The notes beneath the pieces are model-generated. The model made no database searches and was not told the DNA's origin. It saw only the letters and a program-made list of their open reading frames with translations. From assembly GCF_000144695.1 (NCBI RefSeq), contig NC_014378.1:1822043-1886042 (forward strand): a stretch of DNA of 64,000 nt, in the 5' to 3' direction. Position 1 is the first letter of the stretch. The number at the start of each line of letters is the position of its first letter. The translations under genes were made by a program, and so were the position numbers. Positions 9,053-15,887 of this stretch are shown here, piece by piece. The stretch comes from Acetohalobium arabaticum DSM 5501 (GTDB lineage Bacteria; Bacillota; Halanaerobiia; Halobacteroidales; Acetohalobiaceae).

Positions 9053-10003
9053 TCACTTTGCATCTCTTAAACCTAAAGCCGCTACACCTACTGCATTATC
9101 ACTGCTGAATTCAGGAGCAGCAAAGAATAATCTCCCTCCTACTGCTGGATGCTCTAACTTATCTTTTAACCTCTGACGCAAATAGAGATTAGCAGCTACA
9201 CCACCAACAATTAAAATCTGGTCCAAGCCCTGCTCATCCAAAGCTAGTCGCAACACCTTCTCTAAAGCCTTTGCAATACAGCTTTGAACTGCCAGAGCAA
9301 TATCAGCCGGTCGCTTATTATCAGCTACTGCCCGCATAGCAGCAGAATTAGGGCCGGAAAAGCTAATATCATATCTATCTACTGCTGAAGGAATTATAAC
9401 TGCTCCTTTCTCTCCCTTCTGAGCCAGCTTCTCCAACTGAGGACCAGCAGGAAAATCAAGTCCCAGTTCAACACCTACCCGATCTATAAACTGACCTGCA
9501 TGGAGATCAGAAGCCGATCCTAATCTTTCAATCTCAAAACTACCATCAAGAGAAGCTACCCGCATAATCTCTGTAGTTCCGCCCGAAATATGTACAGCTA
9601 AAAACTCTCTGGTTTGAGGGCCGCCGGCCGACCAGATTCCAGCCTGCAGATGCCCAGCTTGATGAGAAACCTCTTTGAGGGGAATTCCTAATACTTCGGC
9701 CAGACTATGAGCATGTCCTTCCCCTACTCTAAAAACTGGCATATAAGACTTATCAGTCGGTCTTGGTTTAGTACTGACAGCTATCTTATATATTTGTTCT
9801 TCAAGAGCTTTTACCCCTAATTCTTTTATCACCTTTGGAAACTGCTCTACATGCTTAAAAACTGCCTCTGACTGGCGCAGACCTCGCTGACCTTTATTTA
9901 CCTCCAACAGTTTTCTGGCTTCTGTTACTAACTCACCTTTCTGGTTCAATAGAGCTGCTGAAGTAGTGTAATTGCTAGTATCAATTCCCATAATTAAACC
10001 CAT
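9053..10003 (-). CDS. TsaD/Kae1-like (M22) ASKHA-fold protein, paralogue
   Basis: Resembles the tRNA threonylcarbamoyl-adenosine synthase TsaD (glycoprotease family). The protein starts with GIDTSNYTTSAALL (phosphate-1 type loop), has a metal-type HQAGH pair near residue 114, and has GGTTEI plus LIVGGVAANLYLRQRL near the C-terminus. At 316 residues it is shorter than true TsaD (about 335-345), and it lies by nusB rather than with tsaB or tsaE. Such second copies are common in clostridia and have no settled function. The ATG at 10003 has AGGAGG 8 bases upstream. I call it a paralogue, not TsaD itself. Confidence 0.8.
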   Translation of the reverse strand: MGLIMGIDTSNYTTSAALLNQKGELVTEARKLLEVNKGQRGLRQSEAVFKHVEQFPKVIKELGVKALEEQIYKIAVSTKPRPTDKSYMPVFRVGEGHAHSLAEVLGIPLKEVSHQAGHLQAGIWSAGGPQTREFLAVHISGGTTEIMRVASLDGSFEIERLGSASDLHAGQFIDRVGVELGLDFPAGPQLEKLAQKGEKGAVIIPSAVDRYDISFSGPNSAAMRAVADNKRPADIALAVQSCIAKALEKVLRLALDEQGLDQILIVGGVAANLYLRQRLKDKLEHPAVGGRLFFAAPEFSSDNAVGVAALGLRDAK

Positions 10004-11340: not shown

Positions 11341-11775
11341 TTACCTTACTCTATGTGTTGTTTCCTCTTTTTCCTCTTCTTCCGCTTCTTCCTCTTGTTC
11401 GTCACCAAAATCTACACCCTGAACATGTACATTAACCTCGACTACTGAAAGCCCAGTCATATCTTCAATTGCCTGCTTAACATTATCCTGAATCTCCCAG
11501 GCAACATCCGGAATTCTAATTCCGTATTCAGTAATCACATACAGATCAATAGCTGCTTCCTTTTCACCAACTTCTACTTTTACTCCTTTAGAAAGGTTCT
11601 TCTTACCCAGTATTTCTGCAATTCCGCCGGCAAATCCACCGCTCATACCTGCTACTCCTTCTACCTCAGTAGCAGCCAAACCGGCTATAATCCCGACTAC
11701 TTCATTGGCAATTCTAACAGTTCCTACATCATTTTCAACCTTTTTCATTGCTTCCATATCATCCATATTATTCAC
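11341..11775 (-). CDS. Asp23/Gls24 family envelope stress response protein
   Basis: A soluble Asp23 domain (about residues 15-120: VRIANEVVGIIAGLAATEVEGVAG, GVKVEVGEKEAAIDLYVITEYG, EVNVHVQGVDF) is followed by a very acidic tail rich in Glu. These proteins are abundant, bind the inner face of the membrane through AmaP and respond to alkaline or envelope stress. The GTG at 11775 has AGGGGG 8 bases upstream. GTG at 11784 overlaps that site, and an in-frame ATG at 11766 is too far from it. The acidic tail suits a halophile but is also seen elsewhere in the family. Confidence 0.88.
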   Translation of the reverse strand: MNNMDDMEAMKKVENDVGTVRIANEVVGIIAGLAATEVEGVAGMSGGFAGGIAEILGKKNLSKGVKVEVGEKEAAIDLYVITEYGIRIPDVAWEIQDNVKQAIEDMTGLSVVEVNVHVQGVDFGDEQEEEAEEEEKEETTHRVR

Positions 11776-11839
11776 AATTTCCACCCCCTGAAACTTTCCA
11801 GCCCCTCTTTCTAATTATTATAAACAGCAAGTAAATATT

Positions 11840-13192
11840 TTACTCTAACTCACCTATAATTCTACGTTGAATAAAGTTAGTATAGAATTCTCCTTGCTGA
11901 AAGAAAGCATTATTAAGAACCAGTTTATGGAACGGAATCGTTGTCTTAATTCCTGATATTTCAAACTCATCTAAGGCTCTTAGCATTCTCCGGCGGGCTT
12001 CTTCCCGGTCATTACCATGAGTAATTAATTTAGCTACCATAGAATCATAATGAGGTGGAATTAGATAACCGGGATAGGCACAACTGTCAATTCTGACTCC
12101 AAATCCACCAGGAATTATATATTCTTCTAACTGACCCGGAGACGGTCTAAAGTCCTTATCAGGATCTTCAGCATTGATTCTACACTCAATTGCTGCTCCA
12201 TTAATCTCAATATCTTCCTGAGTGTATCCCAGTTCTTTTCCACTGGCTATTCTAATCTGTTCTTTAATTAGGTCAATTCCTGTAACAAGTTCTGTGACTG
12301 GATGTTCTACCTGAATTCTAGTATTCATCTCAATAAAGTAATAGTTATTATGTTTATCAAGTAAAAACTCAACAGTTCCTGCATTAGCATAGTTAACAGC
12401 TTCAGCCGCTTTAACAGCTGCCTGCCCCATTTCCTCTCGTAAATCAACATCTAAAGCAGGAGAAGGGGCTTCCTCAATTACTTTCTGGTGGCGCCTCTGA
12501 ATAGAACAGTCTCTCTCTCCTAAATGGACTACATTCCCATGTTCATCAGCAATAATCTGAAATTCAATATGGCGCGGTTCCTCAATATACTTTTCCAAAT
12601 AGACCTCTGCATTTCCAAAAGCAGCTTCTGCTTCTGAACTGGCGGTCTGAATAGCCTGTTTCAAATCATCTTCATTCTGAGCAGTTCTCATTCCCCGGCC
12701 GCCTCCGCCAAATGCAGCCTTAACAATTACTGGATAGCCTATCTCATCTGCAGTCTCAACTGCTTCTTCAAGACCACTTAACCCTCCTTCAGTTCCTGGT
12801 ACTACAGGAACACCAGCCTCAATCATAGTCTCTCGGGCTATAGACTTATCTCCCATCTGTTCCATACTTTCTGCTGAAGGACCAATAAACTTAATCCCGC
12901 AGGTCTCACATACCTCAGCAAAGTAAGCATTTTCAGATAAGAAACCATATCCAGGATGAATAGCATCTACGCCAGCCATATCAGCTACTGAAATAATACT
13001 GGGAATATTTAGATAACTCTTATTAGAAGATGGGGGGCCTAGACAATAAGTTTCATCAGCATGCTTCACATGTAAGGTTTCTTTGTCAGCTTCCGAATAA
13101 ACAGCCACCGTTTTAATCCCTAGTTCTTTACAGGCACGAATAATACGTAATGCTATTTCTCCGCGATTAGCAACTAATATTTTATCAAACAT
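11840..13192 (-). CDS. accC: Biotin carboxylase subunit AccC
   Basis: ATP-grasp enzyme that carboxylates the biotin of a carrier protein using ATP and bicarbonate. Visible features are the N-terminal [22 protein letters not shown], the flexible glycine loop [11 protein letters not shown] near residue 160, [23 protein letters not shown] and the active-site [12 protein letters not shown]. 450 residues is full length. Normally accC follows accB. Here its upstream partner is the OadA-AccB fusion, so AccC could charge both a free carrier (fatty acid synthesis) and the fused carboxyltransferase. Confidence 0.95.
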
Positions 13193-13240: not shown

Positions 13241-13714
13241 TTATAATTTTTCTACTAAAAATAACGGCTGCCCATATTCAATTGGTTCTGCATCTTCTAC
13301 TAAGATATCCAGTATCTTTACTTTATCATCAGCTTCAATTTCATTCATTAATTTCATTGCTTCAATGATACAGAGTGTTTCTCCTTCTTCAACTACATCC
13401 CCTACCTCTACAAAAGGATCAGCATCAGGAGCTGGAGCCCGATAGAATGTTCCTACCATCGGTGCTTCAATAGTTTCACCCTCTTCAGCCTCAACTTCTT
13501 GGTCACTTGCAGTTGATTCGTCTGTTTTGACTGTTTGAGTATCATTATTCTGCGTCTGTGCTTCTTGCTGCACCTCAGCTGTATCTGCAGCTTCCTTAAC
13601 TACAGTGCCGCCTTTCTTAATATTTACCTTAGTATCATCACTTTCTAAGTTAATCTCAGAAACATCAGTTTCATTCAAAATCTTAACTAATTCTTTAATT
13701 TCACCTAAATTCAT
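13241..13714 (-). CDS. accB: Possible free biotin carboxyl carrier protein from an internal start (accB)
   Basis: Within the fused gene, the ATG of [10 protein letters not shown] at 13714 is preceded by GGAGG at 8-base spacing (about 13722-13730). This is an ideal ribosome site, which the fusion reads as the polyglutamate linker. Translation from it gives 157 residues, the normal length of AccB, starting exactly where AccB proteins start. It could therefore supply free biotin carrier for acetyl-CoA carboxylase, whose AccC subunit is the next gene. Whether internal initiation happens is inference. The alternative is that the site is a relic of a former separate gene. Confidence 0.5.
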
Positions 13715-15106
13715 TTCTTCTTCCTCCTCCTTAACTTCTTTATCTTCATCATCAACACCGAATATATCTTTCTCCTGTTTTCTTTCTTTCAAAAATTTCA
13801 GACCTACCTGTGGAAAGAGAGCATAGGACAGATAATCCTCTTCCTTCTCTGCATAGTGTTCTACCTCATCCTTGATATTATCCAGCATCGGATCCAATAA
13901 ATCAGCCGGGCGACAGGTGATCGGCTCTTCATCTCCAATTGCTAATTCTTTAATCTCAGGATCTATCTCGGCTGGCGGCCTTCCATAGTAACCTCTGATA
14001 TAGGATTTAACTTCATCAGGAATCACCTTATATCGCTCTTCTAATAAAACATTAAATACTGCTTGAACGCCTACTACCTGACTGGTAGGTGTTACTAATG
14101 GTGGATATCCTAATTCTTCTCTTACTTTTGGAATTTCATTTAATACATCATGAATTCTATCCAAAGAATTCTGATCCTCTAACTGCGAAACCAGATTAGA
14201 GATCATACCGCCTGGTACCTGATGAGAGAAAGTCTGCATATCAGTAATTCTAGTAACTCCTCTTTCAAATCCTCTCTCCCGTCTAACCTGTTCAAAGTAA
14301 CGGTCGATATCAAATAAAGAATCAAGATCAAATTTATTATCATACTCAGTTTCACTAAAGATAGCTGTTATCGTCTCAACCGGTGGTTGAGAAGAACCAA
14401 AAGCCAGTGAAGCAGTAGCAGTGTCAACTACATCTGCTCCAGCCTCGATCGCCTTCAAATATGTTGATATCGCTAAACCACCAATATAATGACTATGTAT
14501 CTGAATCGGAAGATCGACCTCTTCTTTAATTGCCGTTACTAAATCATAGGCCCTATATGGCTTTAGCAAGCCTGCCATATCCTTAATACATATTGAATCT
14601 GCTCCCATCTCCTGTAGAGTAACGGCAGTCTCTACATAATGTTCAATAGTATGAACCGGACTGACAGTATATACTACTGTCGCCTGAGCATGGGCTTCAG
14701 TCTCTTTTACCGCTTCTAAAGCCGTCCGCATATTCCGTACATCATTTAAAGCATCAAAGATACGGAAGATGTCTATCCCGTTCTCCTCTGCTTTCTGTAC
14801 AAACTTCCTTACTACATCATCAGGATAATGCTTATAGCCTACTACATTCTGAGCTCTGAGCAGCATCTGTAAAGGAGTATTCTGGATATATTCATTCAGT
14901 AATCTCAATCTCTCCCAGGGATCTTCCTTTAGATACCGCATACAGACATCAAAGGTTGCCCCACCCCATACTTCCATCGAATGATAACCAACTTCATCTA
15001 ATTTACTAACTATCGGCAGCATATCTTCTGTTCTCATTCTGGTAGCCCACAACGACTGATGGGCATCACGCAAAGTAGTATCTGTAACTCCAACTTTTTT
15101 TGTCAC
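13241..15106 (-). CDS. Fusion: OadA/PycB-type carboxyltransferase plus complete AccB-like biotin carrier
   Basis: Residues 1-455 are the oxaloacetate decarboxylase alpha/pyruvate carboxylase B carboxyltransferase domain: [19 protein letters not shown], the biotin-Lys site-type [19 protein letters not shown] and the following PYC/OADA region. Residues 464-621 look like an entire Acc[14 protein letters not shown] start, a Gln/Thr-rich linker, then APMVGTFYR and the biotinylation motif EAMKLMNEI. OadA proteins normally carry a much shorter biotin tail of a different type. Start is GTG with GAGGAGGG upstream. With AccC it could form a two-subunit pyruvate carboxylase; the sodium-pump OadB is not nearby. 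An internal start is annotated separately. Confidence 0.9.
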
Positions 15107-15204
15107 ACTACTCCCTCCTCACAATCTTCTAAATATTAATTTCTTTAAATTAAATATAAATCCCTCTTTTTCAATTAATTTTTTACCAAAAATTAGATCT
15201 ATAG

Positions 15205-15284: not shown

Positions 15285-15887
15285 TTAATACTTCTTCTCG
15301 ATAATTGTTACATCTTCTATTTCTAATCCGGTAGTTTTAGCTACTATATCTCCAATTTTAGCTACATCCTTCTTTTCAAGCCCGCTATTGGAAGCAATAA
15401 TTACATCTACCGAGTTCTGATGAAGAAATGAAATTGCATCCTGATAGTCACGAGCTCTAATAAGGCTTTCTATCTCCATTTCTTTTTCTAAATTATTAGT
15501 TATTTCTAATAATCTATTCTGTGCTTTGTTCTTCAACTCTTTATTGGAATTAGGATTATTGATCATCTCCCGCAGTAGATTTACCTGTTCACTTCTTATT
15601 TTATCTCTCTCTAATCGATACTCTATAAAGAAGTTTTCATCTTTCTTCTTGGTATCCTGGTCTGTTTTAGCTACATTAATTGCTTTCTGTTCTACTTTTT
15701 GCAGTTTCTTATCTAATTCCTCTGGTGTTTCAATCTCCATATTACTGACTTCTTTAGCTTGAGGCTTCTCTTCTTTGCTGATTGATGCCGAATCATCTAC
15801 ATTATAAACTACAATTGCCGATACCATCCCTACCCATAACATCAGAACCAACAACCAGATTAACTTCTTTCTAATAAAGATTGACAT
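15285..15887 (-). CDS. spoIIIAH: Stage III sporulation protein AH
   Basis: Mother-cell membrane protein whose C-terminal YscJ/FliF-like ring-building domain meets SpoIIQ across the intermembrane space during engulfment. One N-terminal transmembrane helix (about residues 8-28) is followed by a charged helical segment and the ring domain (about 85-200: FFIEYRLERDKIRSEQVNLL...VDVIIASNSGLEKKDVAKIGDIV). 200 residues is normal. It is the last gene of the eight-gene operon and is followed by a terminator. Confidence 0.92.
   Translation of the reverse strand: MSIFIRKKLIWLLVLMLWVGMVSAIVVYNVDDSASISKEEKPQAKEVSNMEIETPEELDKKLQKVEQKAINVAKTDQDTKKKDENFFIEYRLERDKIRSEQVNLLREMINNPNSNKELKNKAQNRLLEITNNLEKEMEIESLIRARDYQDAISFLHQNSVDVIIASNSGLEKKDVAKIGDIVAKTTGLEIEDVTIIEKKY

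Follow-up and report, generated by a model that had tools for sequence, protein, structure and literature searches.

A carboxyltransferase-AccB fusion gene of Bacillota with a conserved internal ribosome site and start codon for a putative free biotin carrier protein

The window analysed here, a 64,000-nucleotide stretch of the Acetohalobium arabaticum DSM 5501 genome (NC_014378.1), encodes on its minus strand a fusion of a carboxyltransferase (CT) domain and an AccB-type biotin carrier protein (BCCP). The open reading frame (13241..15106) begins with GTG at 15106, 7 nt downstream of the Shine-Dalgarno (SD) sequence AGGAGG (15114..15119, minus strand), and its long product has 621 aa, with a calculated mass of 70.2 kDa. 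Its conserved upstream neighbour is spoIIIAH (15285..15887, minus strand). On the 3' side the fusion gene is followed by accC (11840..13192, minus strand), which encodes the sole biotin carboxylase of the genome, then by an Asp23/YqhY-family gene (11341..11784, minus strand), AmaP and nusB.

The CT domain (aa 1-455; 13742..15106, minus strand) is of the pyruvate carboxylase subunit B / OadA type and matches the PYC_OADA and HMGL-like families (PF00682, PF02436). Its motifs KDMAGLL, which includes K175, and HSHYIGG are invariant in the alignment of the 13 genomes of the window's order. The remainder of the frame (13241..13714, minus strand) corresponds to a complete AccB-type BCCP, the short product, of 157 aa and 17.2 kDa (calculated), with MNLGEIKEL at its N-terminus. 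Residues 465-621 match the TIGR00531 BCCP model with 165.7 bits (cut-off 115.2) over positions 1-156 of 156, starting from the Met, which bears out the in-frame join of a CT domain to a whole AccB-like protein that a preliminary description of the locus had reported. The biotin-accepting Lys585 (codon at 13352..13354, minus strand) lies in the motif EAMKLMNEI, also invariant in the 13 genomes. The top PDB match of the fusion protein is 5KS8 chain C, and the BCCP part aligns with the nearly full-length BCCP of PDB entry 4HR7. In the fusions of the order the carrier begins about 15-30 residues past the CT end, in the interval where a pyruvate carboxylase subunit B would be expected to have its BC-docking BT-like domain. 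An AlphaFold2 model of the fusion, based on a 13-row alignment, had a mean pLDDT of 46 and was set aside. The acetyl-CoA carboxylase operon of B. subtilis has the arrangement accB-accC-Asp23 (yqhY) (PMC5437119). Here, too, a TIGR00531 BCCP is followed by accC and an Asp23-family gene, except that accB is not free-standing and forms the 3' portion of a gene that begins with the CT.

The two parts are joined by an acidic linker (aa 456-464; 13715..13741, minus strand) whose DNA carries an internal ribosome site. The codons at the join read GTT AAG GAG GAG GAA GAA GAA ATG AAT TTA. The internal SD sequence, AAGGAGGAGG (13723..13732, minus strand), has its second GGAGG 8 nt before the ATG (13712..13714, minus strand) that would start the free BCCP; in relatives this codon is ATG, GTG or TTG. 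The GGAGG is translated as K-E-E, inside VKEEEEEM. Both its position 8 nt upstream of ATG 13714 and its reading as part of a Glu-rich linker are seen in the sequence, as the preliminary description had stated.

The A. arabaticum genome consists of one contig of 2,469,596 bases. A genome-wide search with PF00364 (Biotin_lipoyl) found no further biotin carrier; the separate accB that would have spoken against the preliminary description is thus absent, and the only possible carrier for acetyl-CoA carboxylase sits inside the fusion. The other PF00364 matches were rejected as a second biotin carrier, since they are two lipoyl domains with an EADKT motif on dihydrolipoyl dehydrogenase. This dihydrolipoyl dehydrogenase with two N-terminal lipoyl domains is encoded at L069:1512-3488 (minus strand), near 692-694 kb of the same genome. 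The gene accA is present (496 bits) and adjacent to accD, their PF01039 matches lying side by side away from the fusion locus. The genome also contains one biotin carboxylase only, in agreement with the single AccC first described, a biotin ligase-family gene above the cut-off, and no second CT of the same family as that of the fusion.

In a sample of the class (59 genomes), the fusion was found in 13/13 genomes of the window's order, with open frames of 624-647 aa. In each of them it is the only TIGR00531 BCCP above the cut-off, and accC follows it. In the remaining class members with a BCCP above the cut-off, accB is free and usually codes for 144-186 aa; it lies just before accC where the surroundings were readable, mostly between spoIIIAH and accC. 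Across the class sample, accA was above the cut-off in 32 genomes and BCCP in 33; the odd genome, with BCCP and no accA, is an assembly that is 80% complete. Outside the class, a scan of named genomes that left out the window's own order led to fusions in Peptococcaceae, Thermincola and Desulfovirgula records. A phylum sample of 397 genomes, many of them MAGs, contained 224 with BCCP, and at least 80 fusions, including a few genomes also in the window's order, were present among the matches listed, which extend down to about E 2e-44 and so favour well-conserved BCCP N-termini. The idea that the fusion is peculiar to the window's lineage was rejected, as it is present throughout the order and in the phylum sample.

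A phylogenetic tree unites the fused CT domains in a single clade (support 0.995), in which the window's order branches first, so that the fusion most simply arose once, as one ancient event, and spread through the phylum. Vertical descent, with CT loss in several lines, would fit the AccC tree; a transfer of the module into the window's order is also conceivable. Desulfovirgula thermocuniculi has no CT, yet AAAAGGAG still precedes the start of its accB; the AccC of this species groups with the AccC of a fused relative. A recent loss of the CT is possible there. This accB, with its ribosome site and without CT, is found at L154:2850-3522, and a Desulfovirgula MAG (L123) has the fused form.

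The window sequence alone cannot prove the internal site, since synonymous recoding of the linker gives an equally good site with p = 0.25, and it is the comparison with relatives that decides. The junctions of 95 fusions were therefore compared, of which 85 remained after removal of near-duplicates; the counts that follow leave relatedness among these unmodelled. The codon of BCCP residue 1 is ATG in 61, GTG in 18, TTG in 4 and another codon in 2 of these 85; in the two exceptions a start codon stands one or three codons further upstream. A start codon (ATG/GTG/TTG) at residue 1 is thus seen in 83/85 fusions, against 0-11/85 at 16 neighbouring columns. Wherever residue 1 is Val it is encoded by GTG (18/18), whereas GTG makes up 30% of the Val codons in the CT parts; the chance of this outcome is 0.30^18, about 4e-10, with relatedness ignored. 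The 4 remaining non-Met starts are TTG, so that the protein changes from M to V to L and initiation is kept.

The SD sequence gives a similar picture. A duplex energy with the anti-SD of -6 kcal/mol or lower was found at 84/85 junctions, against 156/2574 (6%) of the in-frame internal start codons. Glu at column -4 is encoded by GAG in 57/60 cases, and at columns -3 to -1 in only 7/54; Lys at column -5 is AAG in 38/41. The SD core falls in one reading frame in 81 cases and in another in 14; it is read as KE, RE, EE, GG or KG, and its spacing to the start is mostly 8 nt. Within the order, different residues precede the start (KEEEEE, SEEEEE, TREEED, SREAQED, NEEADED). The internal SD and start codon are nevertheless kept in 13/13 genomes, one with GTG in place of ATG, and they are retained essentially everywhere in the phylum sample, so the loss of the site in relatives, which the preliminary description had considered, is not what was found. 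Combined over relatives, the synonymous-recoding test gives 1e-15, a value that treats the relatives as independent, and for this reason the codon-column counts were preferred. The mRNA is less strongly folded around the join than around internal start codons in 80/85, but composition-matched shuffles abolish this difference (mean z -0.22), and it was dropped as evidence of accessibility. Because the motif and the start stay while the residues and the frame of the linker change, the pattern reflects selection on internal initiation and is no by-product of a Glu-rich linker. Taken together, these comparisons show that the internal ribosome site and start codon are under selection across the phylum. 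The reading frame is open through the join in 95/95 fusions and the linker has 30 distinct lengths among those measured, and therefore the long form is also under selection.

A separate and unrelated CT-BCCP fusion, whose CT is 28% identical, precedes accC in an Actinomycetota MAG (L145:407-2263). Its join reads CTT, with no start codon or SD, and accA is present in that genome. A fusion by itself thus need not create an internal ribosome site, and a fused BCCP may suffice for acetyl-CoA carboxylase in some lineages, as this case suggests.

The same Actinomycetota fusion, lacking an internal start beside an accA, would fit a scheme in which the fused protein is the sole product and supplies, through its BCCP arm, the attached CT as well as AccA/AccD. 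In that case the SD-like stretch would be a relic of an old accB leader or an effect of Glu-rich codons, and Glu/Lys-rich linkers do easily give SD-like DNA, as the p value of the window illustrates. A fossil would decay, however, and the GAG choice, the GTG/TTG starts, the spacing and the out-of-frame SDs are kept phylum-wide despite the turnover of the linker, which makes this scheme quite improbable. The location of the SD-like stretch at a domain boundary might also point to programmed pausing of the ribosome, giving the CT time to fold ahead of BCCP synthesis; a pause has no use for a start codon, yet ATG, GTG or TTG stands at 83/85 junctions, mostly at a spacing of 8 nt, and we consider it very improbable. 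Proteolysis of the acidic linker could likewise be proposed as the source of free BCCP: the linker does vary in length and sequence, but cleavage without internal initiation leaves the conserved start codons and SD motif unexplained, so that it is most improbable.

A further alternative bears on the long product alone and does not conflict with an internal start. The preliminary description had taken the CT domain for OadA, and it could be the alpha subunit of the Na+-pumping oxaloacetate decarboxylase, as its sequence is of the OadA family and scores 724.8 bits against TIGR01108. This score is, however, under the cut-off of 756.5, and OadB (PF03977) was found neither in the A. arabaticum genome (G000) nor in two others of its family; two members of that family, G049 and G050, do have it. 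Moreover, accC always comes after the fusion in the 13 genomes of the order. The decarboxylase is thus improbable, and the missing OadB together with the TIGR01108 score below its cut-off makes a pyruvate carboxylase subunit the likelier identity. With the pyruvate carboxylase subunit B model NF006761, the whole fusion protein scores 892.5 bits (cut-off 402).

Overall, it is highly probable that the fusion is a dual-product gene, which provides a CT-BCCP for a two-subunit pyruvate carboxylase and a free BCCP for acetyl-CoA carboxylase. Initiation at GTG 15106 would yield the long CT-BCCP form, which with AccC would constitute a two-subunit pyruvate carboxylase that converts pyruvate into oxaloacetate. 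A second, independent initiation event at ATG 13714, directed by the SD embedded in the linker codons, would yield the free 17 kDa BCCP, and this would form acetyl-CoA carboxylase with the same AccC and AccA/AccD. Selection on the internal start is read from the sequences themselves; the accumulation of both proteins, the complex that each would join and the substrate of the CT are inferred. The assignment of partners rests on gene content, and that of the substrate on family scores and the absence of OadB.

The partner of the free BCCP may differ between lineages. In the clade tested, accA was found in 65/79 fused genomes, and the other 14 lack accA (TIGR00513), yet keep the site. Thirteen of these 14 carry a PF01039 carboxyltransferase, full-length in 12 (507-530 aa; for example in G301, G077 and G276), and so the free BCCP may have another partner there. 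These accA-less genomes may draw their malonyl-CoA from a different type of acyl-CoA carboxylase. As a phylum-wide switch between anaplerosis and lipid synthesis within one gene, the long and short forms might also compete for the one AccC, with the ratio of outer to internal initiation splitting its capacity between pyruvate and acetyl-CoA carboxylase, although we regard this as doubtful. Such competition may involve mixed AccC/BCCP assemblies, and ribosome traffic through the CT part might affect the initiation ratio, which is likewise rather unlikely.

Two-subunit pyruvate carboxylases have been described for Proteobacteria and Aquificae (PMC5059739). As in the fusion, PycA and PycB of Methylobacillus flagellatus (5KS8) have CT and BCCP in one chain and the biotin carboxylase (BC) in another (PMC5059739). 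That system has a dedicated BC; in the present gene a complete AccB provides the carrier, the sole AccC is the BC, and an internal start has been retained. BCCP and pyruvate CT domains are already known to undergo fusion and fission (PMC3199775). In SctQ/Spa33 of type III secretion (PMC4832279), an internal in-frame start is known to yield the C-terminal domain as a separate product alongside the full-length protein; SctQ/Spa33 is structural and has both products in one complex, whereas here two metabolic enzymes would be served. Similarly, Cas11 is made as a C-terminal subunit via an internal start in the type I Cascade large subunit gene (PMC11899642), a protein unrelated to CT-AccB, as is its function. 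The literature search found no CT-AccB gene described as having a conserved internal start; this is a weak negative, as subscription journals lay mostly outside the search.

If the dual-product interpretation is true, a large fraction of the Bacillota would have two central carboxylases with a common biotin carboxylase and with a carrier obtained from one gene with two translation starts, an arrangement kept since the fusion arose. Two-subunit pyruvate carboxylase would extend beyond Proteobacteria and Aquificae. Genome annotation could miss accB in fused genomes, where one 'OadA/PycB' of 610-745 aa stands instead. The gene would also be a clean example of a coding linker from which selection on an internal start can be read at the nucleotide level.

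Two further features of the neighbourhood were observed. A TsaD/Kae1-like paralogue (9053-10003, minus strand) is located between folD and nusB in the window, and it is conserved there within the order as well as in two other genomes from the class. In G007, a transposase-like ORF (L052:6164-7366, minus strand) lies between spoIIIAH and accB.
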